From the IMG/VR virus record IMGVR_UViG_3300027749_000100, positions 1 to 64,000 of that record: a stretch of DNA of 64,000 nt; one strand, 5' to 3'. Below the pieces are notes generated by a model. It was not told the DNA's origin and did no database searches. It worked only from the letters and a program-made list of their open reading frames with translations. This document shows, one piece after another, positions 1,279 through 60,963 of this stretch; within the stretch, counting starts at the first letter, position 1, and the number at the start of each line of letters is the position of its first letter. This DNA comes from a virus. Position numbers and translations under genes: made by a program.

Positions 1279-1307
1279 GTCTGCATCCTCCTTTTGGATA
1301 CAGATTG

Positions 1308-1336
1308 ATCATAGCACACAAAATGAAGCAATGCAA
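1308..1336 (-). promoter_or_regulatory. Sigma70-like promoter for the 883-1278 gene
   Basis: On the minus strand there is TTGCAT (1331-1336), a 17-base spacer, and TATGAT (1308-1313) preceded by TG-C, an extended -10. Predicted initiation is near 1301, giving a leader of about 23 bases with the AAAGGAGG site. The same -35 (TTGCAT) and spacing recur at 28675-28703 and 61987-62015, which supports the call. Confidence 0.65.
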
Positions 1337-1339
1337 CTG

Positions 1340-4474: not shown

Positions 4475-4483
4475 AAATTTTCC

Positions 4484-27628: not shown

Positions 27629-27629
27629 G

Positions 27630-28319
27630 TTACTGCTGCTCTCCGTCAATATTTTCTGGGCCGTCTATGGAATCCATTGTTTCCCACTCCTCGTCAACCA
27701 TTTTCCAGAAATTTTCATCATCCATTCCATACGTCATGTCAACTGATTGTGTTTGCCCTTGGGACGAGGAACCTGCAAATTTTGTGACATGAGCCGGAAT
27801 AGATTTATTTGTTATTCGAGTATATCCGTCATCTTCTTGTATTTCTATTGCCTCATCTTCATCATCATTTGATTCAGGGGTTTGATTATAATTATTTATA
27901 GGAATAGTGTAATCGTCATGAACGCCAAAACCGTTAGGAGGTGGCAACACTCCACCATATGGCCTGAGCATGGTGAATGGAGGCATCTTCAAGTCGGGAG
28001 AATCGTCTCCCCACTTTCGAATGCCCCATTTTATTTCGGCCCAGAATTGGCGACGATAAAAATCAATATGCGCTGCATCGTAATCTACAGGTTTTTCCTG
28101 AAATTCTTGCATTGAAATATTGTATTGATTTCTATACCATTCAAGTATTTCCGATTGATAGACCCCATCAAGTGCTTTTTTCTTGATGTCTCGTATGTAT
28201 GATTCGCTATATGAGTTAACGAAACGAGTTTCGCCAATTCTCCCATTCGCGATAATAATGAAGAAGATCGTCAAACTCGTAGATATTTTCCAGAAACTTG
28301 TCAATGCTTCCTGCGGCAT
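27630..28319 (-). CDS. Downstream frame of the tape-measure chaperone pair (likely frameshift product)
   Basis: This frame is open from 28319 and stops one base before the tape measure ATG. It overlaps the 28216-28638 gene by 104 bases in the +1 frame (equivalently -2). Its internal ATG at 28319 has no convincing SD. The first 30 or so residues it would encode there (STSLTIFFIIIANG) look like an out-of-frame reading of the upstream gene. Real-looking sequence begins at about SYSESYIRDIKKKALDGVYQSEILEWYRNQYN and continues to an acidic C-terminus (MDDENFWKMVDEEWETMDS). The arrangement tube, short ORF, overlapping ORF, tape measure is the conserved G/G-T arrangement of tail assembly chaperones, in which the second frame is made by ribosomal frameshifting. 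The in-frame portion is therefore probably 27630 to about 28222. Confidence 0.7.
   Translation of the reverse strand: MPQEALTSFWKISTSLTIFFIIIANGRIGETRFVNSYSESYIRDIKKKALDGVYQSEILEWYRNQYNISMQEFQEKPVDYDAAHIDFYRRQFWAEIKWGIRKWGDDSPDLKMPPFTMLRPYGGVLPPPNGFGVHDDYTIPINNYNQTPESNDDEDEAIEIQEDDGYTRITNKSIPAHVTKFAGSSSQGQTQSVDMTYGMDDENFWKMVDEEWETMDSIDGPENIDGEQQ
28216..28233 (-). promoter_or_regulatory. Candidate programmed frameshift site
   Basis: The end of the upstream chaperone frame reads TCG TTT CGT TAA. A +1 slip of tRNA-Phe from UUU (28222-28224) to UUC would place the ribosome in the downstream frame (UUC GUU AAC) just before the stop. A small self-complementary element, CGAAA-CTCG-TTTCG (28220-28233), overlaps it. 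The frame difference is certain; the exact slip site is inference, and a -2 slip elsewhere in the overlap is possible. Confidence 0.35.
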
Positions 28320-35562: not shown

Positions 35563-36738
35563 TTATTGAGCCGCCTCAAGTATTGCCGCTCGTGCTTTCA
35601 GTGCATCCACTTGTGCCGATAATTCCTTAACTGCATTTACCATCGCCCACTTTATATCATTTGCATTGATATTATAAAGTTCTGTAGAAATTTCTGTTCC
35701 ATCATCCTTTTTTTCAACATGCGTGTATGTTCCAACCATTTCAGGCCACGAAACTGCCGCCTCTTGTGCAATCACTGAAACGTGATCTTTTCCGTTGTCT
35801 TTTGATCCGTACAAGCCATTGAGCCTATATACTACAGGGTTTAATTGCTTAATGGCAGAAAGTCCTTTTTGATACAAATGAAGAACGTTTTTTACTCTTG
35901 AATCAGAAGTAATTGTCCATAAATCAGTAGCTGGCTTTGTTGCGTTATCGGTGTTTACAATAAGTGAATTGCACTGAATTTCATAAAGTGCAGTAACATT
36001 TTGCGCATATATTCCAGCGTAATCAGTAGCAAAATCAACATAATTGCTTTCTGTTTTTTTTAAAGTTAATATTGCTGCCTCTGAGCCATCATAAAAGTCG
36101 AGTATACCGGTCATGCCCACAGTGCTAAATTGAAGAGCTCCATAGGTAGTCAATTGAGAAAGATGCTCAATGCCTCTAGACACCGTTACTTCTGATGAAC
36201 CATCCCAACTTGTAACAATATTTTGACTTGTATCTAATGCAACAAGTCCTGTTCCGAAATTCAACGGATATGACGTTGTTCCATTTACAGAACCTCCTGA
36301 CGCTCCTCCGTTTGATGCAGCGGTCACTCGCCCATATTGATCAACAGTCAGGGAAGCGTCGGTATAGGTGCCTGCGGGATTTGAAGCAAGCGGTTTCAAC
36401 GAGATGGTTTTTGCGGCCGATCCATTATATGTTGTTCCACTATTTAACATTAGCGTATTGTTGTCAACAGTGAGATTAAACAAATTTGATCCCAAAGACA
36501 CTCCAGATATGCTTGAGTTAGCCAATTTCCCATTGGCAATGGGTCCTGCCAGCATTGAGTTTGTAACCGTGCCAGTATCGCCGGATCCGATCAATGTGCC
36601 GGAAGCCGCCGGAAGCTGGAGTGTTACTCCGGTTGTTCCCGCTGGAGCAGCATAAATAGTTGCTGACCCGCTGGTTGACCCATACAACGTCAAGGATGCT
36701 CCAGTAAATGCTTTTGTCAGTCCCCCGTATGAAGGCAT
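35563..36738 (-). CDS. S74-chaperone tail fibre (short form)
   Basis: The 391-residue fibre starts MPSYGGLTKAFTGASLTLYG with an AGGAG site. The shaft has NGKLANSSISGVSLGSNLFNLTVDNN and SLTVDQYGRVTAASNGG, common fibre units. The C-terminal chaperone of endosialidase (about residues 270-391) has TSDSRVKNVLHLY (catalytic Ser and Lys), LSAIKQLNPVVYRLNG, DHVSVIAQEAAVSWPEMVGTY and a coiled coil (VKELSAQVDALKARAAILEAA). The chaperone folds the trimer and cuts itself off. The downstream gene is the same protein with a propeller inserted. The two probably arose by duplication followed by gain or loss of the insert. Confidence 0.88.
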   Translation of the reverse strand: MPSYGGLTKAFTGASLTLYGSTSGSATIYAAPAGTTGVTLQLPAASGTLIGSGDTGTVTNSMLAGPIANGKLANSSISGVSLGSNLFNLTVDNNTLMLNSGTTYNGSAAKTISLKPLASNPAGTYTDASLTVDQYGRVTAASNGGASGGSVNGTTSYPLNFGTGLVALDTSQNIVTSWDGSSEVTVSRGIEHLSQLTTYGALQFSTVGMTGILDFYDGSEAAILTLKKTESNYVDFATDYAGIYAQNVTALYEIQCNSLIVNTDNATKPATDLWTITSDSRVKNVLHLYQKGLSAIKQLNPVVYRLNGLYGSKDNGKDHVSVIAQEAAVSWPEMVGTYTHVEKKDDGTEISTELYNINANDIKWAMVNAVKELSAQVDALKARAAILEAAQ

Positions 36739-36750
36739 TTTGGTTCTCCT

Positions 36751-39700
36751 CTATCCCACTTCGGTAGTTTCAATGACTGCCACCCAGCGAATTCGCGTGC
36801 TTGCTAATCCAGTTACAGCAATTTGCAAAGATCCAAACATCGATGTTTCTGCAACAACAGTAAACGAAACTTGCGAAAGCTGCGAATCAACAGCAACAGC
36901 AGTAACAGTAGGAGATCCAATAATGGTTGTTGTTCCATTTGTTGCTGTTTTTCTAATTGCTCCCGTAATTTCCCAATTTCCGCCAAATGATCCATAGGTT
37001 GTAGTTGAATTTGTTCCTATTGTTCCAGAAGAAGCAACTAATTGAATAGTAAATCTGTACGTACTATTATTAGGTAAAACAATATGGTTTGCTGAATCAA
37101 ATGTTCCCGTTCCATCTGCGGTCATATTAACTGCAGACGCATTTGTTGTAGTTGCGCGAAGAACATGCAACCCGAATTGCGCGTCGCCATTGGAAGCAAA
37201 TCGCCCAGCAGAATAAGCAAATTTTCCGTACAATTGCGCATTACCATACAGTCCTCCCGGAATAGCAGAGTAATCTCCAGAAGCTGCATTGCCCGAACCT
37301 CCGCTGATAACCGAAACTGATCCGCTAGATACTTGCAAAGATGCATTACGTATTGTTTGCCAATCTACTGAATTTGTTCCTCTCTTGTTTCCTCCTGTTG
37401 ATGAATTATCGGGAATGTTTCCAAGCAGCGATCCTGTTCCTTTTGGTCGTAAAACAAGATCAACATCAGTAGTTGATCCCGCTGCCGTCAAAGAATCCAC
37501 ATAAGTATAAGTATTAGGCGAAGATGTGCTTTCAGCAAAAGCAACCTGCGTGATTGATGTGCCTCCCGTTCCGTTTTCTGCAGCGATAATTCTTCCTTGC
37601 GCATCCACAGTAATATTTGCAGATGTGTAAGAACCTGCAGATACATCAGTGTTTGTCAAAGAAATAGTGACTGCAGAAGAGCCATTGAAACTGGTTCCTG
37701 AAAGTCCGCTACCTATAGTTAGAGCATTGGTAGTTGTGACCCCAGCTCCCGGTGTTGACCAGAAAAGTTCACCCGACCCATTGGTGCTAAGCACCTGTCC
37801 GCTTGCTCCGTCAGAAGGCAATACATATGTAGTTGATCCCGCAATGGCAGGAGCGACAAGACTCACTGCTCCTGATGTTGATCCGGAAATACTTAGTGTT
37901 CCCTTGACATCGAGAATGTCTCTGAATGTTCCACTATTTGCCGCAAAATTATTGATACGATAGGTTTGTACCGTAGTAGTGCCAAGACGATTCACCACAA
38001 AAGCAAACCTGCCAGTTGGGTCAACCGCAACACCATAAGGAGCTAACCCCGTTGCTGCCGTTCCGACCGAGGTCAATGCTCCGGTGGATTGATTGATGGT
38101 ATAGGCCTGCACCGTGGAGCTACTATAATTCGTCACAAAAGCAAATCTGCCAGTTGGGTCAACCGCAACACCATTAGGAGCTGACCCCGTTGCTGCTGTT
38201 CCAATCGAGGTCAATGCTCCGGTAGATTGATTGATGGTGAAGGCTTGTACCGTAGTGCTACCATAATTCGTCACAAAAGCAAACCTGCCAGTTGGGTCAA
38301 CCGCAACACCCTGAGGAGCTAACCCCGTTGCTGCCGTCCCTACCGAGGTCAATGCTCCGGTAGCTTGATTAATGGTGTAGGACTGAACTCCTGTTGCGGC
38401 GCTACCATAATTCACCACAAAAGCAAATCTGCCAGTTGGGTCAACCGCAACACCACAAGGATTTGTCCCCGTTGCTGCTGTTCCAATCGAGGTTAATGCT
38501 CCGGTAGATTGATTGATCGTATAGGCTTGCACGGTATTGCTAATGCTAGAATAATTCGTCACAAAAGCAAATCTGCCAGTTGGATCAACCGCAACAGCAT
38601 AGGGATAATTCCCCGTTGCTACCGCACCTACCGAAGTCAATGCTCCGGTAGATTGATTGATGGTATAGGCTTGTACGGTGGCGCTACTATAATTCGGGAC
38701 AAAAACAAACCTGCCAGTGGGGTCAACCGCAACACCGTAGGGACCTGATCCCGTTGCTGCCGTGCCTACCGAGGTCAATGCTCCGGTAGATTGATTGATT
38801 GTATAGGCTTGCACCGTGGCGCTACTACCATTTGTCACAAAAGCAAACCTGCCAGTTGGGTCAACCGCAACACCAGAAGGAGCTGACCCCGTTGCTGCCG
38901 TCCCTACCGAGGTCAATGCCCCTGTTCCTCCGTGAAAAGTCGGTGGAGGAAGAAGATTATTACTCGTCACCGCCCCATACGTAATCGACGATCCCGAGAT
39001 GGGATTTCCGACAATATATTGAGTTGATCTCAATTGCCCTTGAATATCTGCTCCTGCTTGTATCGATTGTGTTCTTCCCGCTCCTACCACAAGAGGCGCG
39101 GCAAACGTCTGTGTGGCTGTCCATGCATGTGCAATTGCTAGCGCATCCGCCGCAGTAGTAATTCTTCCCTGTGCATCTACTGTAATACTTGCAACAGGGT
39201 ATGAACCTGCTGTTACTGCAGTGTTTGCCAATGCAATTGTTACTGCAGCAGAACCATTGAAACTTGTTCCCGAAAGTCCCGTTCCAATGGTCAGCGCATT
39301 GGGAGTGTTAACACTAATGTCTCCCGATCCATTGAACGCAACACCGTTGATGTTTCGAGAAGTGGTAAGCGTTGCAGCACTTGTTGCCGTGGAAGCATTT
39401 CCGGAAAGTGCTCCATAAAACGTTGTCGCTTCCATGTCTCCAAGTGTGCCGGAATATACTTCAGAAACATTTGTTCCGTCAGGGATAAATGCAAATCTTT
39501 GATTATTTCGCCGAAATCCAAAAAATCCTTTTTTTGCGGTAGAATTATACCACTGAAACTCAACACCTCTGTCTTTTGCATCATTGGAAATGAGTGTCGC
39601 GCCATCGACACCTCCGCCAAGGCTGATGATTGGATCCTTCAAAACTGTCGTTGTTGCATTAACTGTAATTGTAGTTCCATTTACCGTAAAATTTCCACCA

Positions 39701-40395
39701 ACAGTCACGTCGGCAAATGTTTGCGCAGCAGTCCAAGTATTTGAATTGCCTAAATTTAAGGTAATGGTGTTTGCTTCTGATCCATTAAACGTTCCAGTTG
39801 TTCCAGAAAGTCCTGATCCAATGGTGAGTGCATTTGGAACACCACTTCCGTTTGAAGCGGACGTAATCCTTCCTTGCGCATCGACAGTGATGTTTGCTGT
39901 AGAATACGAACCTGCTGTTACTGCAGTATTTGCCAATGCAATTGTTACTGCAGCAGAACCATTGAAACTTGTTCCCGAAAGTCCCGTTCCAATGGTTAGA
40001 GAATTTGTTGTGGTGCTTGTTGCGCTGCCGCTTGATGCAGCAGTGATTCGTCCTTGAGCATCGACAGTCAGGGCAGCATTCGTATAGGAACCCGGAGTAA
40101 CTGCAGTGGAAGCAATTCCAATGGTTACATCTCCGGTGGCTGCATTGACAGAAATTCCCGTTCCAGCAGCAACTGAGGTGACCGGCTTCTTCCAAGTTCC
40201 GGGCGTTCCTCCCGCAATGCATATGTGAAGTACGCCTGAGCGATCAATGACAAAATCACCAACAGAAAACGTTCCCGTCGTCGGGGCACCCGAAGCAGTT
40301 GCTCCCACATATCGAGACAGCTCTTTTGATCCGCTTAACCCTGTAGCGGTCAAAGTGGACGTTCCGGAAAATGAACTCAGTTTCGCTACTGGCAT
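36751..40395 (-). CDS. Tail fibre with a seven-bladed YVTN-type propeller inside
   Basis: This 1,214-residue protein starts one base inside the stop codon of the preceding gene (TAATG) with GGAGA upstream. Residues 1-440 are fibre shaft: repeated NALTIGTGLSGTSFNGSAAVTIALANTAVTAGSY and ITVDAQGRITAAS units, plus a DRGVEFQWYNSTAKKGFFGFRRNNQRF block known from fibres of large T4-like marine phages. Residues about 490-812 form exactly seven blades with consensus VAVDPTGRFAFVTN-x-TVQAYTINQSTGALTSVG. The shaft motif then resumes. The protein ends in a domain closing with RWVAVIETTEVG, also found in three other fibre proteins here. The propeller is inserted between shaft parts rather than at the tip. 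It is probably a receptor-binding or glycan-binding module. Confidence 0.85.
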   Translation of the reverse strand: MPVAKLSSFSGTSTLTATGLSGSKELSRYVGATASGAPTTGTFSVGDFVIDRSGVLHICIAGGTPGTWKKPVTSVAAGTGISVNAATGDVTIGIASTAVTPGSYTNAALTVDAQGRITAASSGSATSTTTNSLTIGTGLSGTSFNGSAAVTIALANTAVTAGSYSTANITVDAQGRITSASNGSGVPNALTIGSGLSGTTGTFNGSEANTITLNLGNSNTWTAAQTFADVTVGGNFTVNGTTITVNATTTVLKDPIISLGGGVDGATLISNDAKDRGVEFQWYNSTAKKGFFGFRRNNQRFAFIPDGTNVSEVYSGTLGDMEATTFYGALSGNASTATSAATLTTSRNINGVAFNGSGDISVNTPNALTIGTGLSGTSFNGSAAVTIALANTAVTAGSYPVASITVDAQGRITTAADALAIAHAWTATQTFAAPLVVGAGRTQSIQAGADIQGQLRSTQYIVGNPISGSSITYGAVTSNNLLPPPTFHGGTGALTSVGTAATGSAPSGVAVDPTGRFAFVTNGSSATVQAYTINQSTGALTSVGTAATGSGPYGVAVDPTGRFVFVPNYSSATVQAYTINQSTGALTSVGAVATGNYPYAVAVDPTGRFAFVTNYSSISNTVQAYTINQSTGALTSIGTAATGTNPCGVAVDPTGRFAFVVNYGSAATGVQSYTINQATGALTSVGTAATGLAPQGVAVDPTGRFAFVTNYGSTTVQAFTINQSTGALTSIGTAATGSAPNGVAVDPTGRFAFVTNYSSSTVQAYTINQSTGALTSVGTAATGLAPYGVAVDPTGRFAFVVNRLGTTTVQTYRINNFAANSGTFRDILDVKGTLSISGSTSGAVSLVAPAIAGSTTYVLPSDGASGQVLSTNGSGELFWSTPGAGVTTTNALTIGSGLSGTSFNGSSAVTISLTNTDVSAGSYTSANITVDAQGRIIAAENGTGGTSITQVAFAESTSSPNTYTYVDSLTAAGSTTDVDLVLRPKGTGSLLGNIPDNSSTGGNKRGTNSVDWQTIRNASLQVSSGSVSVISGGSGNAASGDYSAIPGGLYGNAQLYGKFAYSAGRFASNGDAQFGLHVLRATTTNASAVNMTADGTGTFDSANHIVLPNNSTYRFTIQLVASSGTIGTNSTTTYGSFGGNWEITGAIRKTATNGTTTIIGSPTVTAVAVDSQLSQVSFTVVAETSMFGSLQIAVTGLASTRIRWVAVIETTEVG
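37955..38930 (-). repeat. Seven tandem propeller-blade repeats (subfamily VAVDPTGRFAFV)
   Basis: Seven direct repeats of about 138 bp share GTTGGGTCAACCGCAACACC and the GAGGTCAATGCTCCGGT core. They encode YVTN/lactonase-type blades. The subfamily uses VAVDPTGRF rather than VACDPTGKF, so it is homogenised within this gene but distinct from the arrays at 41-47 kb. Confidence 0.9.
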
Positions 40396-41006: not shown

Positions 41007-42224
41007 TTATCCCCAAAAGGATTTTGTTTCAAGCCAATAATATAATTTTGTAATAAAAGTATACGGTCTTATGGTGGCGTTTGCAATGGTTTTTATTGCG
41101 CCGCTAATTGGAGGGGAAATTGGTCGATAGGTACTGAGTGCGTCGAAATTGAAATTGCGAAATCCCACACGAGTGTTTCGAGTGATGACAGGAAAATTGA
41201 ATGCTTTTGATTGAGATGTTTGATAATAGACTATATTTGGATAATAAGAAAAAACAGTGCTCGAACCAGTATTTGCCACATACACAAATTTCCCTGTGGG
41301 ATCACAGGCAACGCCTTGGGGATTAGTTCCCGTTGCCACCGCTCCCACCGAAGTCAATGCTCCGGTGATTGCATTGATCGTGTAGGCCTGAACGGTGCTT
41401 GAAGTAAAATTCGCCACATACACAAATTTCCCCGTGGGATCACAGGCAACAATGTAGGGATTAGTTCCCGTTGCCGTTGTTCCCATCGAGGTCAATGCTC
41501 CGGTACTTGCATTGATCGTGTAGGCCGAAACGGTGTCTGAACTATAATTCGTCACATACACAAATTTCCCCGTGGGATCACAAGCAACGCCGTAGGGATT
41601 AGTTCCCGTTGCCGTTGTTCCCACCGAGGTCAATGCTCCGGTGATTGCATTGATCGTGTAGGCCTGAACGGTGTTTGGATTAATATTCGCCACATACACA
41701 AATTTCCCCGTGGGATCACAGGCAACACCGTTGGGACCAGCCCCCGTTGCCGCTGTTCCCACCGAGGTCAATGCTCCGGTTACTTGATTGATCGTGTAGG
41801 CCTGAACGGTGTTTCCTCCGAGTCCATTGTAATTATTCGCCACATAGACAAATTTCCCCGAGGGATCACAGGCAACACCCCAAGGAAATGCTCCCGTTGC
41901 GGTTGTTCCCACCGAGGTCAATGCTCCGGTACTTGCATTGATCGTGTAGGCTTGAACGGTGCTTGAACCAGCATTCGTCACATACACGAATTTCCCTGTG
42001 GGATCACAGGCGACAAAGTAGGGACTAGTTCCCGTTGCTGCCGTCCCGACCGAGGTCAATGCTCCGGTACTTGCATTGATCGTGTAGGCCTGAACGGTAC
42101 TTGAACTCAGATTCGTCACATACACAAATTTTCCTGTGGGATCACAGGCAACGCCGATGGGAATACTCCCGGTCATTGCTGTTCCCAAATTGCTGAAATT
42201 GTGTGAAAATACAATTCCTGCCAT
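41007..42224 (-). CDS. Seven-bladed YVTN beta-propeller protein
   Basis: This 405-residue protein consists of a short N-terminus (MAGIVFSHNFSNLGTAMTG), exactly seven blades (about residues 20-320) with the consensus VACDPTGKFVYV-N-x-TVQAYTIN-x-TGALTSVG-ATG, and an 80-residue Tyr/Arg-rich tail (TRNTRVGFRNFNFDALSTYRPISPP). Blades belong to the YVTN/lactonase (TIGR02276/PF10282) class, which forms closed seven-bladed discs. No lactonase catalytic histidine or arginine pattern was seen, so binding rather than catalysis is likely. Blades are almost identical in DNA to those of the next gene upstream, pointing to recent duplication. It has no fibre shaft or chaperone. It may ride on a fibre tip or be a secreted or soluble binder; only its place among fibre genes suggests a virion role. 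Confidence 0.8.
   Translation of the reverse strand: MAGIVFSHNFSNLGTAMTGSIPIGVACDPTGKFVYVTNLSSSTVQAYTINASTGALTSVGTAATGTSPYFVACDPTGKFVYVTNAGSSTVQAYTINASTGALTSVGTTATGAFPWGVACDPSGKFVYVANNYNGLGGNTVQAYTINQVTGALTSVGTAATGAGPNGVACDPTGKFVYVANINPNTVQAYTINAITGALTSVGTTATGTNPYGVACDPTGKFVYVTNYSSDTVSAYTINASTGALTSMGTTATGTNPYIVACDPTGKFVYVANFTSSTVQAYTINAITGALTSVGAVATGTNPQGVACDPTGKFVYVANTGSSTVFSYYPNIVYYQTSQSKAFNFPVITRNTRVGFRNFNFDALSTYRPISPPISGAIKTIANATIRPYTFITKLYYWLETKSFWG
41260..42190 (-). repeat. Seven tandem propeller-blade repeats (VACDPTGKFVYV)
   Basis: There are seven 138-bp direct repeats, one of 150 bp because of a four-codon insertion in a loop. They contain the conserved CCCCGTGGGATCACAGGCAA and ACCGAGGTCAATGCTCCGGT segments. 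The third blade carries NNYNGLGG in the variable loop. Confidence 0.92.
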
Positions 42225-42270
42225 ACTTACACTTCAGCAGACATATTTTTTGGCGCAAAAAAATTATGCA

Positions 42271-45200
42271 TCATGTTCCCCAATACGTCACATTTCTTGG
42301 AAGCATGGTTGTTATTTTTTTATTTACTTGATAGGGGGTAATACGGGAAGTATTTATTTTTGTGTCCGGATTTATTGATGGCTGAGAAACCTGATAGTCA
42401 AATTGCGTCAAGGCCAATCCGGCATATCCTGAAGTCGCTGCCGCCAAATATCTATTTCTGTTTGAAATAGTTGCTAATTGCAAAGTAGAATCGGAAGAAT
42501 ATGTATTAATATATGTCAATGCACCGGTTGATTGATTGATAGAATATACTTCTATTGCAGATCCATTATTGTAATAAAAAACTTCCGAACGTGAATCAAC
42601 TGCAGAATAATATGTAAAGCCTGTTGATCCATAATTTCCAACAAGTGTCAACGCCCCAGTTGACTGGTTGATAGAGTATGAAAATATGGAAGATGGTAAA
42701 GCAGGGCCAATAAAACAGGCGTATAAAAATCTATTGTATGTATCAACTACTAAATCAACACATTGCTCAGTAGAGGCAGGAGATATTGCCGATCCAACTG
42801 CAGTCAAAACTCCTGTTGTTTGATTTATGGAATATGCTTGCAATATTCCCGCAATGCCGTTATTACTTCCTCCAACATACAGGAATTTTCCTGTGTTATC
42901 GCTTTTTGTAACATATGGCCGTGTCATTGTTGCAGGAAGAGTGGTTGTACCTAAAAACGTAAACCCTATATAAATTGTGTACGTTTGAACAGTGTTATCA
43001 CCATAATTCACCACATAGACAAATTTTCCCGTGGGATCGCAAGCAACGTGGTAGGAAGATGTCCCCGCTGTCGCTGTTCCCACCGAGGTCAATGCTCCGG
43101 TACTTGCATTGATCGTGTAAGCTTGAACGGTATTTGAGGCCACATTCGCCACATACACAAATTTCCCTGTGGGATCACAGGCAACGCCGTAGGGACAAGT
43201 TCCTGTTGCCGCTGTTCCCACCGAGGTCAATGCTCCGGTGATTGCATTGATCGTGTAGGCCTGAACGGTGTATGGACCAAAATTCGCCACATACACAAAT
43301 TTCCCCGTGGGATCACAGGCAACGCCTTGGGGATTATTTCCCGTTGCCACCGCTCCCACCGAAGTCAATGCTCCGGTGATTGCATTGATCGTGTAAGCTT
43401 GAACGGTGTTGTCAATAGCATTCGTCACATAGACAAATTTTCCCGTGGGATCACAGGCAACGCTTTGGGGACCACTTCCCGTTGCCGCTGTTCCCACCGA
43501 GGTCAATGCTCCGGTACTTGCATTGATCGTGTAGGCTTGAACGGTGTTTCCGCCCACTCCATTGAAAGCATTCACCACAAACACGAACTTTCCCGTGGGA
43601 TCACAAGCAACGGCGTAGGGAGTTGTCCCCGTTGCTACCGCTCCCACCGAGGTTAATGCTCCGGTACTTGCATTGATCGTGTAGGCTTGCACGGTGTTTG
43701 AACCAAGATTCACCACATAGACAAACTTTCCCGTGGGATCACAAGCAACGCCGTAGGGATTTGTCCCCGTTGCTGCCGTTCCCACCGAAGTCAATGCTCC
43801 GGTAGTTGCATTGATTGTGTAGGCTTGAACGGTATTTGTACCAGTATTCGTCACATACACAAACTTTCCCGTGGGATCGCAGGCAATGAAGTAAGGAGCA
43901 GTCCCCGTCCCCGTCGCCACCGTTCCCATAGAGTTCAATGCTCCAGTATCGTCTTTTACATCAAACCTTTTTAATTGATTTACGTCACTTTCTAGAGCAT
44001 AAAAAAATCTTCCATATGATTCAAAAGTTATACTTGCCTTACTACTAGCGGCTGTAGTAATTGTGTAGGCTTGAACGGTGGCTGAACTCTGATTCGCCAC
44101 ATACACAAATCTGCCGGTTGGATCAGACGCAACACCCCAAGGATTTGATCCCGTTGCCGCTGATCCCATCAAAGTCAATGCTCCGGTACTTGCATTGATC
44201 GTGTAGGCTCGAACGGTACCTGAAGTATAATTCGTCACATAGACTTTCCCCGTGGAGTCACAAGCAACGGCGAAGGGATTAGTTCCCGTTGCCACCGCTC
44301 CCACCGAAGTCAATGCTCCGGTACTTGCATTGATCGTGTAGGCTTGAACCGTGTTGTCACCAGAATGCGCCACATAGACAAACTTCCCCGTAGGATCACA
44401 GGCAACGCTTTGGGGACCACTTCCCGTTGCCGCTGTTCCCACCGAGGTCAATGCTCCGGTAGTTTGATTGATTGTGTAGGCCTGAACGGTGCCCGATGCA
44501 CCGATAGAATTCGTCACATACACAAATTTCCCTGTGGGATCACAGGCAACACCGTAGGGGCCAGCTCCCGTTGCCGCTGTTCCCACCGAGGTCAATGCTC
44601 CGGTACTTGCATTGATCGTGTAGGCTTGAACGGTCCATGGAGTATAATTCGCCACATACACAAATTTCCCCGTGGGATCACAGGCAACGCCTTGGGGATT
44701 ATTTCCCGTTGCTGCCGTCCCGACCGAGGTCAATGCTCCGGTACTTGCATTGATTGTGTAGGCTTGAACGGTGGCTGAACCAGTATTCGTCACGTACACG
44801 AATTTTCCCGTGGGATCACAGGCAACGCCTTGAGGACTTGTCCCCGTTGTCACCGCCCCCACCGAGGTTAATGCTCCGGTAGTTGCATTGATCGTGTAGG
44901 CATGAACGATACTTGAACCCTGATTCGTCACATAGACAAATTTCCCCGTGGGGTCACAGGCAACGCCGGTGGGATAAGTTTCCGTTGCCGCTGTGCCCAC
45001 CGAGGTCAATGCTTCAGACAATAACGACGCAGATAGCACTCTTTGCCTTTCAATAAATTCGCCAGTGGTTATGCTGTAAGAAAATCTAATCCAATAAAAA
45101 CCAGTCTCTGACTGTAATTTGACAAAAAGTTCATTTTTTTGCGGATGAAACACAGCGCTATATATGGTATTGCCGCTAGAAACTGTATGTTCTCCTAGTT

Positions 45201-47547
45201 TTATTAAATAATCATTATTTATTTTGTATAATACGCCTTTGTCCGCGCCTCCAACATACATTAAAGTCCTTGTTTTGTCAACAGCGACGCATTGTGAACC
45301 AGATTGTGCAATACGACTGTATCCCGAAACATAATTTCCAACTTCACCAACATCTTTATATCTATAATAATATGTAGATCGTATAAAACTTTTGGAAGAA
45401 CTGGTAAATGGATACGAGTATGCGTTGTTTTTTATTTTACTTAAGGACGACCGCGGCAAGGAAAAGGATTTGGAAGAACTGGTAGAAATATTGTTTAGGT
45501 AATTTGTCGAAAGAGGAAACAATTCGCAAAGGCGATATGAAAAATTATTAGAAATTTTATTTTTTGAGGATACAGAATAATAAGAAATAATGGGAGTAAA
45601 ATAACGCTGAACGGTGTTTGAGCTATTATTCGCCACATAGACAAACTTCCCCGTGGGATCACAGGCAACGCCGTAGGGACTAGTTCCCGTTGCTGCCGTC
45701 CCGACCGAGGTCAATGCTCCGGTACTTGCATTGATCGTATAGGCCTGAACGGTGTCTGCATTAGCATTCGTCACATACACAAACTTCCCCGTGGGATCAC
45801 AGGCAACACCACGAGGAGCACTCCCCGTTGCCGCTGTTCCCACCGAGGTCAATGCTCCGGTGATTGCATTGATTGTGTAGGCCTGAACGGTGTTTGAAAC
45901 ATAATTCGTCACATACACAAACTTCCCCGTGGGATCACAGGCAACACCACGAGGAGCACTCCCCGTTGCCACCGCTCCCACCGAGGTCAATGCTCCGGTG
46001 ATTGCATTGATCGTGTAGGCCTCAACGTCGAATGAAGTAGCAATCGTCACATACAAAAACTTCCCCGTGGGGTCACAGGCCACTTCATAGGGAGTTGTCC
46101 CCGTTGCTTTTGTTCCCACCGAGGTTAATGCTCCGGTACTTGCATTGATTGTGTAATACTGAACGGTGTTTGAAACTCGATTCAACACATACACAAATTT
46201 CCCTGTGGGGTCACAGGCCACTCCATAGGGATAAGTTCCCGTTGACACTGCTCCCACCGAAGTCAATGCGCCGGTACTTGCATTGATCGTGTAGGCCTCA
46301 ACGGTGCCAAAACTAAGGTTGGTCACATAGACAAATTTCCCCGTGGGATCACAGGCAACACCGGAGGGAGCTGATCCCGTTGCGGTTGTTCCCACCGAGG
46401 TCAATGCGCCGGTACTTGCATTGATTGTGTAGGCCGAAACGCTGGCTGAGCTATTATTCACCACATAGACAAATTTTCCCGTGGGATCGCAAGCAACGTT
46501 GTAGGGAGTTGTCCCCGTTGCCGCTGTTCCCACCGAGGTCAATGCTCCGGTACTTGCATTGATCGTGTACGCCTGAACGGTGTTTCCTCCGGCTCCAGTG
46601 AAACTATTCGCCACAAAAACAAATTTCCCCGTGGGATCACAGGCAACGCCTTGAGGACTTGTCCCCGTTGCCACCGCCCCCACCGAGGTTAATGCTCCGG
46701 TAGTTGCATTGATCGTGTAGGCCTGAACGGTGTTTGAATACTGATTCGCCACATAAACGAATTTCCCCGTGGGATCACAGGCAACACCCACAGGGTATGT
46801 CCCCGTTGCCACCGCTCCCGCCGAAGTCAATGCTCCGGTACTTGCATTGATTGTGTAGGCCTGAACGGTGGTTGAATTATAATTCGTCACATACACGAAT
46901 TTCCCCGTGGGATCACAGGCAACGTTTTGGGGAAAACTCCCCGTTGCTGCCGTCCCGACCGAGGTCAATGCTCCGGTGATTGCATTGATTGTGTAGGCCT
47001 GAACGGTGTCTGATTGATTATTCGTCACATACACAAATTTCCCCGTGGGATCACAGGCAACGCCTGTAGGGTTATTTCCCGTTGCCGCTGTTCCCACCGA
47101 GGTCAATGCTCCGGTGATTGCATTGATTGTGTAGGCTTGAACGGTGTTTGATAAAACATTCACCACATAGACAAACTTCCCCGTGGGATCACAGGCAACA
47201 CCGAGGGCACCTGTTCCCGCTGCCGTTGTTCCCATCGAGGTCAATGCTCCGGTAACACTGTTGATCGTGTAGGCCGAAACCGTATATGAACTGCCATTCA
47301 CCACATAGACAAACTTCCCCGTGGGATCACAAGCAACGCCTCGGGGATTAGTTCCCGTTGCCGTTGTTCCCACCGAGGTCAATGCTCCGGTAGTTGCATT
47401 GATCGTGTAGGCCTGAACGGTGTTTGAAACATAATTCGTCACATACACAAACTTCCCCGTGGGATCACAGGCAACACCCCAAGGATTTGTTCCCGCGCTT
47501 ACAGGATTAACATTGGGAAAATTATATCCAGCATCAATTTGCGCCAT
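42271..47547 (-). CDS. Giant multi-propeller adhesin with 28 near-identical YVTN blades
   Basis: This 1,758-residue protein has AAGG upstream. Residues about 15-650 hold 14 contiguous blades (consensus VACDPTGKFVYVTN-x-TVQAYTIN-x-TGALTSVG-ATG-x-G). A 190-residue Ser/Tyr-rich linker (NISTSSSKSFSLPRSSLSK) with two diverged blades follows. A second run of 14 blades (about residues 845-1530) is split 7+7 by a 45-residue insert (FESYGRFFYALESDVNQLKRF). Four diverged blades follow (LQAYSINQTTGVLTAVG, FSYSINQSTGALTLVG), then a short basic tail. The counts fit four closed seven-bladed propellers. One blade (CDSTGKVYV) has lost the Phe codon. No signal peptide, shaft or chaperone was seen. Variation is confined to two loops per blade. 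The protein is inferred to be a multivalent binding protein of the tail or capsid surface. Confidence 0.82.
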   Translation of the reverse strand: MAQIDAGYNFPNVNPVSAGTNPWGVACDPTGKFVYVTNYVSNTVQAYTINATTGALTSVGTTATGTNPRGVACDPTGKFVYVVNGSSYTVSAYTINSVTGALTSMGTTAAGTGALGVACDPTGKFVYVVNVLSNTVQAYTINAITGALTSVGTAATGNNPTGVACDPTGKFVYVTNNQSDTVQAYTINAITGALTSVGTAATGSFPQNVACDPTGKFVYVTNYNSTTVQAYTINASTGALTSAGAVATGTYPVGVACDPTGKFVYVANQYSNTVQAYTINATTGALTSVGAVATGTSPQGVACDPTGKFVFVANSFTGAGGNTVQAYTINASTGALTSVGTAATGTTPYNVACDPTGKFVYVVNNSSASVSAYTINASTGALTSVGTTATGSAPSGVACDPTGKFVYVTNLSFGTVEAYTINASTGALTSVGAVSTGTYPYGVACDPTGKFVYVLNRVSNTVQYYTINASTGALTSVGTKATGTTPYEVACDPTGKFLYVTIATSFDVEAYTINAITGALTSVGAVATGSAPRGVACDPTGKFVYVTNYVSNTVQAYTINAITGALTSVGTAATGSAPRGVACDPTGKFVYVTNANADTVQAYTINASTGALTSVGTAATGTSPYGVACDPTGKFVYVANNSSNTVQRYFTPIISYYSVSSKNKISNNFSYRLCELFPLSTNYLNNISTSSSKSFSLPRSSLSKIKNNAYSYPFTSSSKSFIRSTYYYRYKDVGEVGNYVSGYSRIAQSGSQCVAVDKTRTLMYVGGADKGVLYKINNDYLIKLGEHTVSSGNTIYSAVFHPQKNELFVKLQSETGFYWIRFSYSITTGEFIERQRVLSASLLSEALTSVGTAATETYPTGVACDPTGKFVYVTNQGSSIVHAYTINATTGALTSVGAVTTGTSPQGVACDPTGKFVYVTNTGSATVQAYTINASTGALTSVGTAATGNNPQGVACDPTGKFVYVANYTPWTVQAYTINASTGALTSVGTAATGAGPYGVACDPTGKFVYVTNSIGASGTVQAYTINQTTGALTSVGTAATGSGPQSVACDPTGKFVYVAHSGDNTVQAYTINASTGALTSVGAVATGTNPFAVACDSTGKVYVTNYTSGTVRAYTINASTGALTLMGSAATGSNPWGVASDPTGRFVYVANQSSATVQAYTITTAASSKASITFESYGRFFYALESDVNQLKRFDVKDDTGALNSMGTVATGTGTAPYFIACDPTGKFVYVTNTGTNTVQAYTINATTGALTSVGTAATGTNPYGVACDPTGKFVYVVNLGSNTVQAYTINASTGALTSVGAVATGTTPYAVACDPTGKFVFVVNAFNGVGGNTVQAYTINASTGALTSVGTAATGSGPQSVACDPTGKFVYVTNAIDNTVQAYTINAITGALTSVGAVATGNNPQGVACDPTGKFVYVANFGPYTVQAYTINAITGALTSVGTAATGTCPYGVACDPTGKFVYVANVASNTVQAYTINASTGALTSVGTATAGTSSYHVACDPTGKFVYVVNYGDNTVQTYTIYIGFTFLGTTTLPATMTRPYVTKSDNTGKFLYVGGSNNGIAGILQAYSINQTTGVLTAVGSAISPASTEQCVDLVVDTYNRFLYACFIGPALPSSIFSYSINQSTGALTLVGNYGSTGFTYYSAVDSRSEVFYYNNGSAIEVYSINQSTGALTYINTYSSDSTLQLATISNRNRYLAAATSGYAGLALTQFDYQVSQPSINPDTKINTSRITPYQVNKKITTMLPRNVTYWGT
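42965..45020 (-). repeat. Second run of 14 propeller-blade repeats
   Basis: Fourteen direct repeats of about 138 bp are interrupted between the seventh and eighth by unrelated sequence near 43,930-44,065. Conserved cores are the same as in the 41260-42190 array. Confidence 0.9.
45600..47505 (-). repeat. First run of 14 propeller-blade repeats
   Basis: Fourteen uninterrupted direct repeats of 138 bp (a few of 150 bp from loop insertions) are close to identical outside two short variable segments per unit. The run is long enough to support unequal crossing over. Confidence 0.92.
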
Positions 47548-47549
47548 GA

Positions 47550-49901
47550 TTAAACCTTCAACAGCAGTCTGCTTGTTGCAAACGCCTGATTACTCGAAGT
47601 AGTAAACACATTATTTGAATAATACAATGTGCTTGCAGTGGCAAAAACGACACGAGGACCAGTCACTTGCAAGTTACCCACGAACGCTCCCATGGCGTTG
47701 GTGGTGATGGTAACGGTTGCCTGAGTGATGTACGTCGGAAGACCGGGCGTGGCATTGGTTGGATCGGAAAGAAGAACTCTGGCGTTGTAACTTGCCGAAC
47801 TTTTTCCCTTGGTGGTAATGCAGAATATGCCACGAAACGGCGCGACAAGAAGATCGCCAAGGTAATCGGTTGATGCTTCAACCCTGTGCGAGTATGTGTT
47901 TGCCAGCACACCAGTCGTCAGCGTGTTATTGGCCTGTGAAACCAATGCATTGCTCACGCGATGAATCGCCCCGGTGGTCAAGTTACTGATGATCGCATAA
48001 ATTGTTCCAGTAAGTGAATCAATGTAAAAAGAAGTGGCATTGACTGGAGTGGCACTTGTTGTGGTGTTTACCAAGTTGGCAACATCGTACAGCAGCACTC
48101 CTGTATCGGCGGTGAATGAAGACATTCTTTGTGTTTGCGCCGATGCTGCGGTGCCGTTCTGGCTGGCCACATAGCACACACCCGCGTAATCAGGCACTGG
48201 AGTGCCCCATGCGGCGGCAAATGCCAACGTGGTGGCACTCGGGTGAATGCCTGCATTTGCCGTGTATGTCGAACGATTCACCATTGTTACCGTTGGCCTC
48301 AACATCACTTGGCGTGATGAGGCATACACGTACTTGTTGTCAATGCCAAGATATCCGCTTCCCATCATGCCAATGGTTGCCGTAGCCGACGCTGCGGTGG
48401 TATATCCTGTTCCGCCATAGATGACCGTAATTGCGCCAGCAGGAACGCCTGTGGTCACACCAATGGACAGAAGAGCGTAGTTGCCGGAAGTCGACAGACT
48501 GAAATACAATGTTCCCGTCTGACCGCCAAGATATCCCGTGCCTCCGGCACTTATTGTTGCAGCGGTGATTACACCGGACGATGCTGTGGTCGTGACAGTC
48601 AATCCTGATCCTGCCGTATTTGGAAAGGTCAGTGAAGTTGCTGCCAACGTTTCCGTGTCAATCTTTACAAGACCAAAATATGTTGCGCCATAAAGCGTCC
48701 GTTCTCCATCAAACAGGAGATCAATGACTGACGTGTTTGCCGTAGCCGTAGGATTTGTCCACGCAAGCGTTGGAGCGACCGTACCGGAAGACATGGGCCA
48801 GTAATAAATGCCCTGCTGGTTGCAAGCCCAGAGGTTATCACCAATGGCGATGACCTTGCTTGCCTGACTCGTAAGCGCCGAACTTGCCACTGGAGTGGAC
48901 ATCTTGTTGGCACCATACGTAATGGTACCGATTTCCGATCCGCCATTCAGCGGAAGAATGGCGCAATCGGTATTTGTTCCAGTAGAAGAAACCCAACCTC
49001 CAGTACTGTCCAGAGGAATGGTAATCGTATCCAAATGCGATCCGATTGTTCCGGTAACGCTCAAGTTGTATGTTCTGCCAAACGGCATGTACTTGGTGCT
49101 TGCATCCACGGAAATGGGCGATGCATACACCTTGCTTGAAGAGGTGTCCCATCCATACGTCATGTTGTAGTACGATCCAAGATGAAGAAGGTTCGAGTCA
49201 ACGGTGATGGCCACTGTTCCGGATGGATACACCGGAGGATACATTCCGCGATTGGTAACTGGAGCGTATAGCGCAGCAGCGGCAGCGCCAGTCAATCCGT
49301 CCTGTGTCCTCGGGAACGCATACATGATTCTGCTTACGGCCGTTAATTTGCCGTGCGGAGTGCCCATCATCACGCTGCTCGTCCATGCCCAGCATGGTGC
49401 GTTATTGGCAACGGTATCTTCGGGCACCGCACGTTCAAACTCGAATACGCCAGTCCACATGTCTGGCTCCGACTTGATGTAGGGCCAGATCACCAAATGC
49501 CTTGCCGATGCGCCGACAAAAATAAAACAATCCTTCAGATCATAATGCTGGGCAAATGCTCCTGCACCAGTCCACGATTCATTGGTGGCAACGTGCGTTG
49601 ATGCATTCCAACTTTCACAAGTGGAGGTATAAAATGTGGATTTTACGACATCCCAGCGCAAAATAAAATATTTGTATGTTGTCGCATCTGCATTCAGCAC
49701 TCGATACACATACGTATAAAGCGGAGAAAAAGTACTTGTCGTACCAAGTCCGGGTACAGAGTTGGCGACATAATCATACTGCGTCCACCCAAGCGTGGTA
49801 ATTGCCGTATTGACACCGGAAAAAATATTCGTGAACGTCACTTCGTTCGAGATATTTACCCGATAGCTATTTGCCCCATACAGATAATTTGTTACGGTCA
49901 T
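47550..49901 (-). CDS. Large virion protein of unknown function
   Basis: This 783-residue protein has GGGAG upstream and ends two bases before the giant propeller gene. The N-terminus (MTVTNYLYGANSYRVNISNEVTFTNIFSGVNTAITTLGWTQYDY) and KYFILRWDVVKSTFYTSTCESWN are aromatic-rich. That is reminiscent of large-phage fibre-attached proteins that recur next to tail fibres. Residues about 425-520 contain the GSGLTVTTTASSGVITAATISAGGTGYLGG and VIYGGTGYTTAAS block shared with the sheath and with the 1340-4474 protein. Residues 330-420 and 540-780 have propeller-like strands (VIAIGDNLWACNQQGIYYWP, DLLFDGERTLYGATYFGLVKIDTET). It may therefore contain a diverged propeller. The role is inferred as a structural adhesin. 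Confidence 0.65.
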   Translation of the reverse strand: MTVTNYLYGANSYRVNISNEVTFTNIFSGVNTAITTLGWTQYDYVANSVPGLGTTSTFSPLYTYVYRVLNADATTYKYFILRWDVVKSTFYTSTCESWNASTHVATNESWTGAGAFAQHYDLKDCFIFVGASARHLVIWPYIKSEPDMWTGVFEFERAVPEDTVANNAPCWAWTSSVMMGTPHGKLTAVSRIMYAFPRTQDGLTGAAAAALYAPVTNRGMYPPVYPSGTVAITVDSNLLHLGSYYNMTYGWDTSSSKVYASPISVDASTKYMPFGRTYNLSVTGTIGSHLDTITIPLDSTGGWVSSTGTNTDCAILPLNGGSEIGTITYGANKMSTPVASSALTSQASKVIAIGDNLWACNQQGIYYWPMSSGTVAPTLAWTNPTATANTSVIDLLFDGERTLYGATYFGLVKIDTETLAATSLTFPNTAGSGLTVTTTASSGVITAATISAGGTGYLGGQTGTLYFSLSTSGNYALLSIGVTTGVPAGAITVIYGGTGYTTAASATATIGMMGSGYLGIDNKYVYASSRQVMLRPTVTMVNRSTYTANAGIHPSATTLAFAAAWGTPVPDYAGVCYVASQNGTAASAQTQRMSSFTADTGVLLYDVANLVNTTTSATPVNATSFYIDSLTGTIYAIISNLTTGAIHRVSNALVSQANNTLTTGVLANTYSHRVEASTDYLGDLLVAPFRGIFCITTKGKSSASYNARVLLSDPTNATPGLPTYITQATVTITTNAMGAFVGNLQVTGPRVVFATASTLYYSNNVFTTSSNQAFATSRLLLKV

Positions 49902-49916: not shown

Positions 49917-52900
49917 TTATGGCTGAGTATAGTATAGCGTAATGGATGCATCTGAGGCTCCATTTGATGACACTGTGTCAATGTAGATGGCGTCACTTGA
50001 TGTAGATGCAGTGGTGATTGTAACAATGGAAGAAACGTATTGATTTTGCGCAATGGTCAACGTGCCAATTGTCGTGGCATTTTCGCGAAGAGTAAAAACA
50101 AGCGCTCCTGTGGTTGGCGCAACGGAGCAGGAAGCATACGCGGTGGTGATGATAATGTTTGCGGGAGGAGACCATCTCGGACTTGTCTGTACAAGCACTG
50201 GTCCGATGATATTGTAGGTCTTTGAATATATTGTTGATCCGCCACTTCCTCCCGTGCCGTTCGATGCGGCAGTGATTCTTCCTTGGGCATCCACGGTGAT
50301 ATTGGCACTGGTATATGAAGCGGGTGTCACCGCGGTGTTTGCCAAGGCTACGGTGACCGCAGCAGAACCGTCAAAACTGGTTCCACTCAATCCCGTTCCA
50401 ATGGTCAAAGCATTGGTGGTTGTACCTCCTCCACCTCCGCCTCCCGTGCCGTTCGATGCTGCGGTAATGCGACCTTTCGAGTCAACAGTAATATTTGCAT
50501 TGGTATACGAAGCAGGTGTCACCGCAGTATTTGCCAGTGTCAGGGTAATCGCCGTCGTGCCCGAACCAGAGGCGTCTCCGCTCACGGTAATCGATTGGTT
50601 TCCTGTCAGGTACGTCGAGGTATCCAGCGACCATGTATCAGCAGCCGTCTTCTTCAGAAGACCCGATGTCCCAGACAGACCGGCAATCGCCGTCAGGTCA
50701 GCGTCGAGAGGCTGGGCATCGGTAATTCCGTAACCAGTCAGGGTGGTTGGATTTGTTCCGGCAGTGATCCGGCCCTTCGTATCTACCGTGACGCTTCGGT
50801 ATGTACTGGCGCTGACTCCCGTTGTAGCCAGTGTCAAAGTAATCGCGGTCGTGCCTGAACCCGCTGCATCTCCGCTCACGGTAATCGACTGGTTTGCCGT
50901 CAGATATGTCGAGGTATCCAGCGACCATGTATCAGCAGCCGTCTTCTTCAGAAGACCCGCTGTTCCGACAAGACCGGCAATCGCCGTCAGGTCTGCATCC
51001 AGAGGCTGGGCATCGGTAATTCCGTAACCTGAAAGGGTCGTAGCCGTAGGCCCAGTCGTGCCGTTCGATGCTGCGGTAATGCGTCCTTTCGAGTCAACAG
51101 TAATATTCGCATTGGTATATGAGGCGGGTGTCACCGCAGTATTTGCCAGTGTCAAGGTAATCGCGGTTGTTCCCGAACCAGAAGCGTCTCCGGTAACCGA
51201 GACGGACTGATTTCCTGTCAGATACGTCGAGGTATCCAGCGACCATGTATCAGCAGCCGTCTTCTTCAGAAGACCCGATGTCCCAGACAAACCGGCAATC
51301 GCCGTCAGGTCAGCGTCGAGAGGCTGGGCATCGGTAATTCCGTAACCTGAAAGGGTCGTAGCCGTAGGCCCAGTCGTGCCGTTCGATGCTGCGGTAATGC
51401 GACCTTTCGAGTCAACAGTAATATTCGCATTGGTATATGAGGCGGGTGTCACCGCAGTATTTGCCAGTGTCAAGGTAATCGCGGTTGTTCCCGAACCAGA
51501 AGCGTCTCCGGTAACCGAGACGGACTGATTTCCTGTCAGATACGTCGAGGTATCCAGCGACCATGTATCAGCAGCCGTCTTCTTCAGAAGACCCGATGTC
51601 CCAGACAAACCGGCAATCGCCGTCAGGTCAGCGTCGAGAGGCTGGGCATCGGTAATTCCGTAACCAGTCAGGGTGGTCGGGTTTGTCCCGGCAGTGACCC
51701 TGCCCTTGGTATCAACGGTAACGCTTCGGTAGGTACTAGCACTGACCCCCGTTGTTGCCAATGTCAAGGTAATCGCGGTTGTTCCCGAACCAGAAGCGTC
51801 TCCGCTCACGGTAATGGACTGGTTTGTTCCGTTTGACCAACTTAGCACTCCGCTTGAACTGGAAGACAAAACCTGACCTGTTATTGGCGCAGAGGAAGGC
51901 AATGTATAAACCATACTTTGTGTAATAGTGTCGGGACGCTTTATAGAAATAAAATTACTCGAAGAAATAATGTCTTTAAATCTCAGCATTCCATCTGTTT
52001 GCAGCGTTCCGTATTGATCAATAAAAATATTTGGATCTGGATCATACGATTTAAAAGCAACTGAAATTCCTTGAGAAGTTGAAAAAAATACGGTGTCAGA
52101 TATATTATCTCCAACTCCTATTATAATTCCAGAGAGAGGATCAACAGTGAATATTGTTTCATCTCGCACGTTTCCGCTGGCAATAGATGTTCCGGAGTAA
52201 AGTACATTGCTCCAATATGCGGGAAGAAAAAATTTGAATGCATCTCTATTTTCCACGCCATCGACAAAAGTTTGCTTAGCATTCCAGTTGTTATACATGC
52301 TGGTATTCAATGACAAAGTGACAGCATCTGATCCATCAAAAGTATTTTTTGAACCACTAAGTCCATTGCCAAAAATTAACGGATTTGAATTGGCAGTTGA
52401 AGAAGCACTAATGGTTATATTTCCTGAATTGTTAGCAATTGAAACATTTGCTCCCGCTGTCAATTGAGCTAATTGAAACCCTGTTCCTGTGCCGATAAGC
52501 AACTCCCCGTTGCTTGGCGTTGCAGTTTGTCCTGTGCCGCCATAATTAACATTAATTGCAGAAGCAAGCCATGAACCAGAAACAATATTTCCTAGCGCAG
52601 AATTGCCTGACCCTACATATAACGCATAATTATTCGTCGCGCCAGTTGGTGAATCGACATATATTCCATAAGAATTTACTGAGTTTGTTATTGAAGTTTC
52701 TACAAATAATCCATACGCATTTGTCAGTGAAAGATTTGATAGCGTGCCTGTTTTTTTGGGCACGCCAAAAATATGCTGCGTTGCTGCATTAGTTATGGTC
52801 ATTCCAGAAACTAATGCGTTAAAATTGCTAGACTTGTAACTGTTTGCATGAAAATCTGAAACAGTCAACATAGGTAATAATGTTGTAATTGCGGCTGTGG

Positions 52901-53102
52901 ATGCCGCAACATTTATGCCATTTACATACATTGTGGACGCAGAAACACTGAGAGACGTAGCAGACAAAGTATTTTTTGGAGTAGATTGAATAGTTAATCC
53001 ATAGTTTACTTCCGAAGAAGTTCCTACAGCTAGTCCTCCTGTAACGACTTGACTACCAACAAGATCGAACCTGTTGGTAGCCGTAAAACTTGTCTGAGGC
53101 AT
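49917..53102 (-). CDS. Tail fibre with 106-residue shaft repeats
   Basis: This 1,061-residue protein has AAGGA upstream. The N-terminal half includes NAYGLFVETSITNSVNSYGIYVDSPTG and NYGGTGQTATPSNGELLIGTG, standard fibre motifs. From about residue 420 it has several copies of a unit with TTLSGYGITDAQPLDADLTAIAGL, GTSGLLKKTAADTWSLDTSTYLTGNQS, TGDASGSGTTAITLTLANTAVTPASY and ITVDSKGRITAASNG. These are repeats of trimeric phage fibres. The last 100 residues (PRWSPPANIIITTAYASCSVAPTTGALVFTLREN) read as a compact beta tip, probably the receptor-binding end. No S74 chaperone is present. Confidence 0.85.
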   Translation of the reverse strand: MPQTSFTATNRFDLVGSQVVTGGLAVGTSSEVNYGLTIQSTPKNTLSATSLSVSASTMYVNGINVAASTAAITTLLPMLTVSDFHANSYKSSNFNALVSGMTITNAATQHIFGVPKKTGTLSNLSLTNAYGLFVETSITNSVNSYGIYVDSPTGATNNYALYVGSGNSALGNIVSGSWLASAINVNYGGTGQTATPSNGELLIGTGTGFQLAQLTAGANVSIANNSGNITISASSTANSNPLIFGNGLSGSKNTFDGSDAVTLSLNTSMYNNWNAKQTFVDGVENRDAFKFFLPAYWSNVLYSGTSIASGNVRDETIFTVDPLSGIIIGVGDNISDTVFFSTSQGISVAFKSYDPDPNIFIDQYGTLQTDGMLRFKDIISSSNFISIKRPDTITQSMVYTLPSSAPITGQVLSSSSSGVLSWSNGTNQSITVSGDASGSGTTAITLTLATTGVSASTYRSVTVDTKGRVTAGTNPTTLTGYGITDAQPLDADLTAIAGLSGTSGLLKKTAADTWSLDTSTYLTGNQSVSVTGDASGSGTTAITLTLANTAVTPASYTNANITVDSKGRITAASNGTTGPTATTLSGYGITDAQPLDADLTAIAGLSGTSGLLKKTAADTWSLDTSTYLTGNQSVSVTGDASGSGTTAITLTLANTAVTPASYTNANITVDSKGRITAASNGTTGPTATTLSGYGITDAQPLDADLTAIAGLVGTAGLLKKTAADTWSLDTSTYLTANQSITVSGDAAGSGTTAITLTLATTGVSASTYRSVTVDTKGRITAGTNPTTLTGYGITDAQPLDADLTAIAGLSGTSGLLKKTAADTWSLDTSTYLTGNQSITVSGDASGSGTTAITLTLANTAVTPASYTNANITVDSKGRITAASNGTGGGGGGGTTTNALTIGTGLSGTSFDGSAAVTVALANTAVTPASYTSANITVDAQGRITAASNGTGGSGGSTIYSKTYNIIGPVLVQTSPRWSPPANIIITTAYASCSVAPTTGALVFTLRENATTIGTLTIAQNQYVSSIVTITTASTSSDAIYIDTVSSNGASDASITLYYTQP
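50440..51840 (-). repeat. Direct repeats of about 306-318 bp in a fibre gene
   Basis: The segment GTTCGATGCTGCGGTAATGC recurs at about 50,451, 51,063 and 51,381 with its flanks. The 51,063/51,381 pair shows a 318-bp (106-codon) period and near identity. Related shorter units lie between. This is a recent internal duplication. Confidence 0.8.

Positions 53103-59361: not shown

Positions 59362-60963
<1,602 letters not shown>

Follow-up and report, generated by a model that had tools for sequence, protein, structure and literature searches.

Three neighbouring genes of an uncultured virus, here called A, B and C, encode seven-bladed propellers of the YVTN type, and their products are probably tail-fibre-associated receptor-binding modules in which one face is diversified by blade turnover together with selection. 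The window analysed here, 64,000 nucleotides, is part of an IMG/VR virus record of 70,469 bp, and all coordinates refer to the window unless a contig is named.

The virus and its genomic setting

The tail sheath gene (29350-31575), the baseplate genes (12-19 kb) and the major head protein gene (57584-59335) mark the virus, as judged from its gene content, as a contractile-tailed phage far removed from those in culture. Because the matches of the capsid and sheath proteins are both distant and mixed, assignment to a host was rejected. Directly upstream of gene A lies a gene on the minus strand for a 783-aa protein of unassigned family (47550..49901), which is without a Pfam or PHROG match and is conserved in relatives (homologs in L018-L020); one of these, L018, carries two tandem homologs (918-5850 of that contig; 36% and 54% identity), beside which no propeller gene was detected. 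Several other features of the region deserve mention. The fibre gene at 49917-53102 contains a 318-bp repeat (50827-51665; 2.6 copies, 94% match) at which the sister contig L017 lacks exactly 318 bp; either the number of copies differs within the population or an assembler has collapsed the repeat. The ORF at 59362-60963 on the minus strand includes a run of ATC/TCATCA-type repeats (60170-60472) that on the coding strand probably reads as an acidic stretch rich in Asp, and a 1674-aa protein of the tail block (22625-27649), perhaps the tape measure, has a metallo-endopeptidase-type PHROG match at its C-terminus (3e-5).

Blade count and layout of gene A

Gene A (42271..47547, minus strand) is a single ORF, as the first-pass annotation had proposed, and encodes a 1758-aa multi-propeller protein; the profile searches recommended in that annotation match it strongly (PF10282, E=2e-216, 718 bits against a cut-off of 21.7; TIGR02276, 137 bits against 27.85). 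Genes B and C reach 256 and 134 bits with PF10282, and gene B 58 bits with TIGR02276. The same annotation described two groups of 14 blades, 28 in all, almost identical at the DNA level. Both groups are present with their 138-bp unit, and 28 is indeed the number of uniform blades (14+14), but the second group is broken by a divergent unit, and with seven divergent units included the protein comprises about 35 blade units. A first stretch of 14 uniform blades leads through a linker of about 80 residues to a pair of divergent units; two sets of seven uniform blades follow, with a single divergent unit between them, and four more divergent units complete the series. This places one divergent unit inside the second group and six at its flanks. 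The blade HMM supports four of the seven divergent units; the limits of the remaining three were drawn by eye and from weak AlphaFold strands. The description as almost identical was too strong, as the mean pairwise nucleotide identity is 0.81 among 26 ungapped blades and no exact DNA repeat of at least 75 bp was found in gene A. Instead of a continuous near-identical array, the gene encodes what appear to be closed seven-bladed rings in series, with a constant frame and one hypervariable face. The earlier coordinates delimit gene A correctly but leave out two features related to it, namely a gene of seven blades (41007-42224) and, inside a fibre gene, a cassette of seven blades (37945-38943).

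Repeats are hard to assemble, and two contigs disagree by exactly one unit in the neighbouring 318-bp repeats, which could suggest that assembly has inflated or deflated the array. This explanation is hardly credible: the blade array is identical in the second IMG/VR contig (the match spans 20,338 bp), the blades, at 81%, differ enough for reads to be placed, the frame is open throughout, and 7 recurs as the blade count in many other contigs.

Ring closure and structure models

Judged by sequence, velcro strands and AlphaFold models together, gene A resolves into four predicted closed seven-bladed propellers plus the seven divergent units. Velcro closure of the usual kind can be read from the sequence, in which a d-type strand stands at the N-terminus and the last blade is without its d strand, and the 7-blade runs with this strand agree with the modelled rings. 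The model of residues 1-690 has 14 four-stranded blades (mean pLDDT 82.7), and a broken, low-confidence strand with a dip in pLDDT at residues 336-343 marks the junction of two rings, propeller 1 (residues ~8-335, blades 1-7; 46543..47526, minus strand) and propeller 2 (residues ~336-653, blades 8-14; 45589..46542, minus strand), both delimited by the blade table. A single phage propeller, A0A6J5SZJ1 (333 aa), superposes on propeller 2 over 315 columns (rmsd 1.1, TMt 0.89, 35% identity), and the top Foldseek PDB match of the 1-690 model is 2ymu, described as a highly repetitive propeller. A single 14-bladed ring was rejected on the grounds of this junction and of a pTM of 0.62, as for two rigid domains, and it is also contradicted by relatives in which linkers part the 7-blade rings.

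Propeller 2 is followed by a Ser/Lys/Tyr/Asn-rich linker of low pLDDT (45343..45588, minus strand). Its phmmer match to the tail of gene B is weak and non-significant in the database sense, and a common-tail anchor for genes A and B was rejected because the similarity is too weak. The remaining units, all on the same strand, are the divergent blade-like units 15-16 (45013..45342; delimited manually, both missed by the blade HMM, low-confidence strands), propeller 3 (residues ~846-1163, blades 17-23; 44059..45012; TRF array 44063-45013, pLDDT ~85), divergent blade 24 between propellers 3 and 4 (43939..44058; blade table and blade HMM run, low pLDDT), propeller 4 (residues ~1204-1525, blades 25-31; 42973..43938; TRF array from 42977, pLDDT ~80-85) and divergent blades 32-35 (42388..42972; a blade HMM run of 18 fits 32-34, pLDDT 56-84). 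The model of residues 660-1758 contains two confident rings, propellers 3 and 4, and is weak elsewhere. A plain tandem of five times seven blades was rejected, given that propellers 3 and 4 close alone with the divergent units outside them. We conjecture that the seven divergent units (2+1+4) represent a fifth propeller interrupted by the insertion of propellers 3 and 4, a matter on which the model of this part is neutral.

Genes B and C and their viral relatives

Gene B (41007..42224, minus strand; 405 aa) consists of one seven-bladed propeller (PF10282, 5e-76) and a short C-terminal tail. Gene C (36751..40395, minus strand) encodes a 1214-aa tail fibre protein with PHROG tail fibre and structural matches in addition to PF10282, and its seven-bladed cassette (37945..38943, minus strand), set between shaft repeats, is 81% identical to that of another phage. 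Downstream of gene C follows a fibre protein with a Peptidase_S74 intramolecular chaperone (35563..36738, minus strand; PF13884, 3.5e-7; PHROG tail fibre). The proposal that a YVTN-type propeller protein is encoded in a phage tail-fibre cluster thus finds support both in the profile matches and in the fibre proteins formed by gene C and its relatives. Gene C lies in a tail or fibre block and carries fibre domains itself, as do relatives that include L013 and L012, whereas genes A and B share the location only, and in neither could a shaft or virion-anchor domain be recognised.

About 30 related virus ORFs have runs of exactly seven blades within tail-fibre proteins. Across all loci scanned with the blade HMM, every complete, uninterrupted viral run outside the second half of gene A has 7 (or 14) blades; L016 has 3+4 blades on either side of an insert, and where a contig end truncates a run its blades are fewer. 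The proteins that contain the related cassettes are fibre-like and have long shaft repeats, some of them ending in an S74-type chaperone (those of L013, L014 and L040, the first also by Pfam), and the contigs of L010-L012 have the same structural-gene block as the window, with multi-propeller fibres. In a tree, 35 of the 36 viral cassettes form one supported group (96/85) apart from the bacterial ones, with L043 outside it, and a recent bacterial origin was rejected for this reason. The five complete A/B propellers group together (100/100), and the cassette of gene C falls among the fibre cassettes of other phages. No close match was present among 50,697 GenBank phage records, none exceeding 30% identity at the sensitivity used; the matches below that level are mostly unannotated fragments of doubtful quality.

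Two further observations concern the wider family and the blade core. The related proteins of bacterial MAGs (L044-L062) mostly keep to the same quantum of 7 or 14 blades, and several have lipoprotein- or secretion-like N-termini. Blade position 11 is Cys in 25 of 25 ungapped uniform blades of genes A and B (41007-47547) and Val in gene C and most fibre relatives, and the seven Cys would line the inner strands around each A/B propeller.

The first-pass annotation had left the role of gene A between a multivalent binding protein and a decoy. The first is the probable one. A decoy, secreted or displayed on the cell surface during infection, would accord with the want of an obvious virion anchor in genes A and B, but no signal peptide is evident at their N-termini (MAQIDAGYNF, MAGIVFSHNF), both genes belong to a cluster of structural genes that share one strand, and fibre domains are the nearest relatives of their products, the homologous cassettes being located inside tail-fibre proteins; very little credence can be given to it.

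Variation confined to one face

In the 25-26 ungapped A and B blades there is hardly any variation in the strands, in the a-b turn or in most of the c-d turns; the variable positions are 4, 5, 7, 8, 21 and 23-26. With strand boundaries taken from the AlphaFold model of residues 1-690, these positions correspond to the d-a loop (4-8) and the b-c loop (21-26) with the adjoining strand ends. In any propeller the d-a and b-c loops lie on the same face. The variable loops should accordingly share one face here as well, a placement that follows from fold topology and not from coordinates. The residues in these loops are mostly G, S, N, Y, T, A and Q, and the same positions vary in L010, L011, L012, L015 and L029.

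The replacements at these positions exceed what silent change would predict. For the window blades pN in the loops is 0.513, as compared with a pS of 0.365 in the loops and 0.289 in the framework, the blades compared being paralogs subject to gene conversion, a process that can depress pS in the framework. Bootstrapping over blades gave 0.17-0.27 for loop pN minus framework pS and 0.07-0.23 for loop pN minus loop pS, so that the excess is smaller against loop pS. Loop pN also exceeds loop pS in L010-L012 and L029, and does not in L015. An independent ortholog pair, the two close relatives L013 and L014 from different samples, was compared at loop positions fixed beforehand on the window, and 14 of 16 replacements fall at those positions (binomial P ~1e-8).

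One other explanation is that the propellers are structural spacers or decorations that extend or stiffen the fibres, with loops that vary merely through lack of constraint. Uniform tandem rings would suit such a function, L015 conforms to it, and the possible lowering of framework pS by conversion weakens one of the two contrasts; we nevertheless regard it as unlikely, since loop pN exceeds loop pS itself in the window and in four of the related loci, and the variation is restricted to the loops of one face while the a-b and most c-d turns remain invariant. It is also conceivable that the propellers are a virion-borne enzyme, lactonase-like or glycan-cleaving, that acts on the cell surface, as the scores exceed the PF10282 cut-off and some phage propellers are endosialidases (PMC4901313). 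The earlier remark that no lactonase-type active site is evident accords, however, with the composition of propellers 1-2, in which 0 His, 3 Glu and 5 Arg among 642 residues make lactonase chemistry unlikely, and no conserved acid/base residue was found on the variable face. Against the 6-phosphogluconolactonase model NF008258 gene A passes the summed score by way of 14 short stretches only, and genes B and C fall below the 370-bit cut-off; none gives the full-length match of a single-propeller equivalog. An enzymatic role is therefore very unlikely, and receptor binding by the variable face is the reading developed below.

Probable blade turnover

The suggestion that the blades have been homogenised holds in the sense that the shared framework is kept nearly constant and positional orthology is absent. 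Framework DNA identity between cassettes is 0.842 for blades at the same ring position and 0.842 for blades at different positions; between A/B and fibre cassettes the two values are likewise equal (0.699 and 0.699), and identity within one propeller is mostly higher than between propellers. Equal identity at same and different positions indicates blades without positional orthology that have been re-amplified or exchanged within lineages, presumably through recombination. The result fits the picture given in the literature, in which single blades are the source from which propellers are continually amplified (PMC9218822). Duplication in blocks of seven blades was rejected, the similarity between blades having no peak at lag 7.

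In presenting hypervariable residues on a fixed scaffold the propellers resemble the targets of diversity-generating retroelements (DGRs) in phage tail proteins. Unlike these, they are accompanied by no detectable reverse transcriptase (RVT_1) in the 70-kb record, which may be incomplete, and have no marked adenine bias, with heterozygosity at A columns of 0.23 as against 0.16-0.18 and many A positions constant; diversification by a DGR was rejected on both counts. Diversity might instead arise through the exchangeability of the blades, if recombination within and between genes were to make the frame uniform and at the same time reshuffle pairs of loops into a combinatorial, antibody-like multivalent face, a proposal that we put forward tentatively and consider somewhat doubtful.

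Proposed role

In the proposed arrangement gene C would place one propeller within a fibre shaft, gene B would supply one more, and gene A a string of at least four. Each ring would present 14 variable loops, one d-a and one b-c loop per blade, on one rigid face, with the strands and the turns of the opposite face held constant in every blade. Repeated duplication and exchange of blades within the phage lineage would homogenise the frame, with selection favouring replacements in the loops. Assuming that the proteins are carried in virions, this would probably lead to multivalent binding to variable glycans or proteins of the host surface, with new specificities drawn from shuffled and mutated blades. 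If this is true, phages possess a modular scaffold that renews its binding face one blade at a time and needs no dedicated mutator, which would be another solution to the problem of keeping receptor-binding proteins abreast of changing host surfaces. As the cassettes are simple and present in many uncultured phages, host-range evolution by repeat turnover would then be directly testable.

Comparison with known systems

The YVTN/lactonase-type propellers (PF10282, TIGR02276), including the surface layer protein of PDB 1l0q, which is the best PDB sequence match of gene B, have the blade sequence and seven-fold ring in common with the phage propellers, but the latter are situated in fibres, with several rings per chain, one hypervariable face and no enzyme-like residues. 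A direct precedent for YVTN propellers in phage tails was not found in the open-access literature. Three proteins of uncultured Caudovirales in BFVD (A0A6J5SZJ1, A0A6J5SDD4 and A0A6J5R6I7), machine-annotated as lactonase/YVTN, have the same fold, and for these the literature yielded annotation only, with no analysis of loop variation or arrays found. The WRAP domain of Npun_R6612, whose 14 repetitive blades fold as two seven-bladed propellers (PMC9218822), is like propellers 1-2 of gene A in both respects, and differs in belonging to the WD40 family and to a STAND-ATPase protein of a cyanobacterium. Extracellular contractile injection systems carry beta-propeller lectins (eBAP3) on the fibre of a contractile tail (PMC12923769); these are bacterial injection systems with collagen shafts, and the likeness is drawn from their description. 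The same applies to phi11 Gp45 (five-bladed), PRD1 P2 (five-bladed) and phiKZ gp131C (seven-bladed), in which propellers are probable receptor-binding domains (PMC4901313), with a single propeller per chain as described. The propeller as a phage binding head is thus of a known kind, and what is new is that, in a clade of uncultured phages, rings in tandem combine a uniform frame with a hypervariable face.
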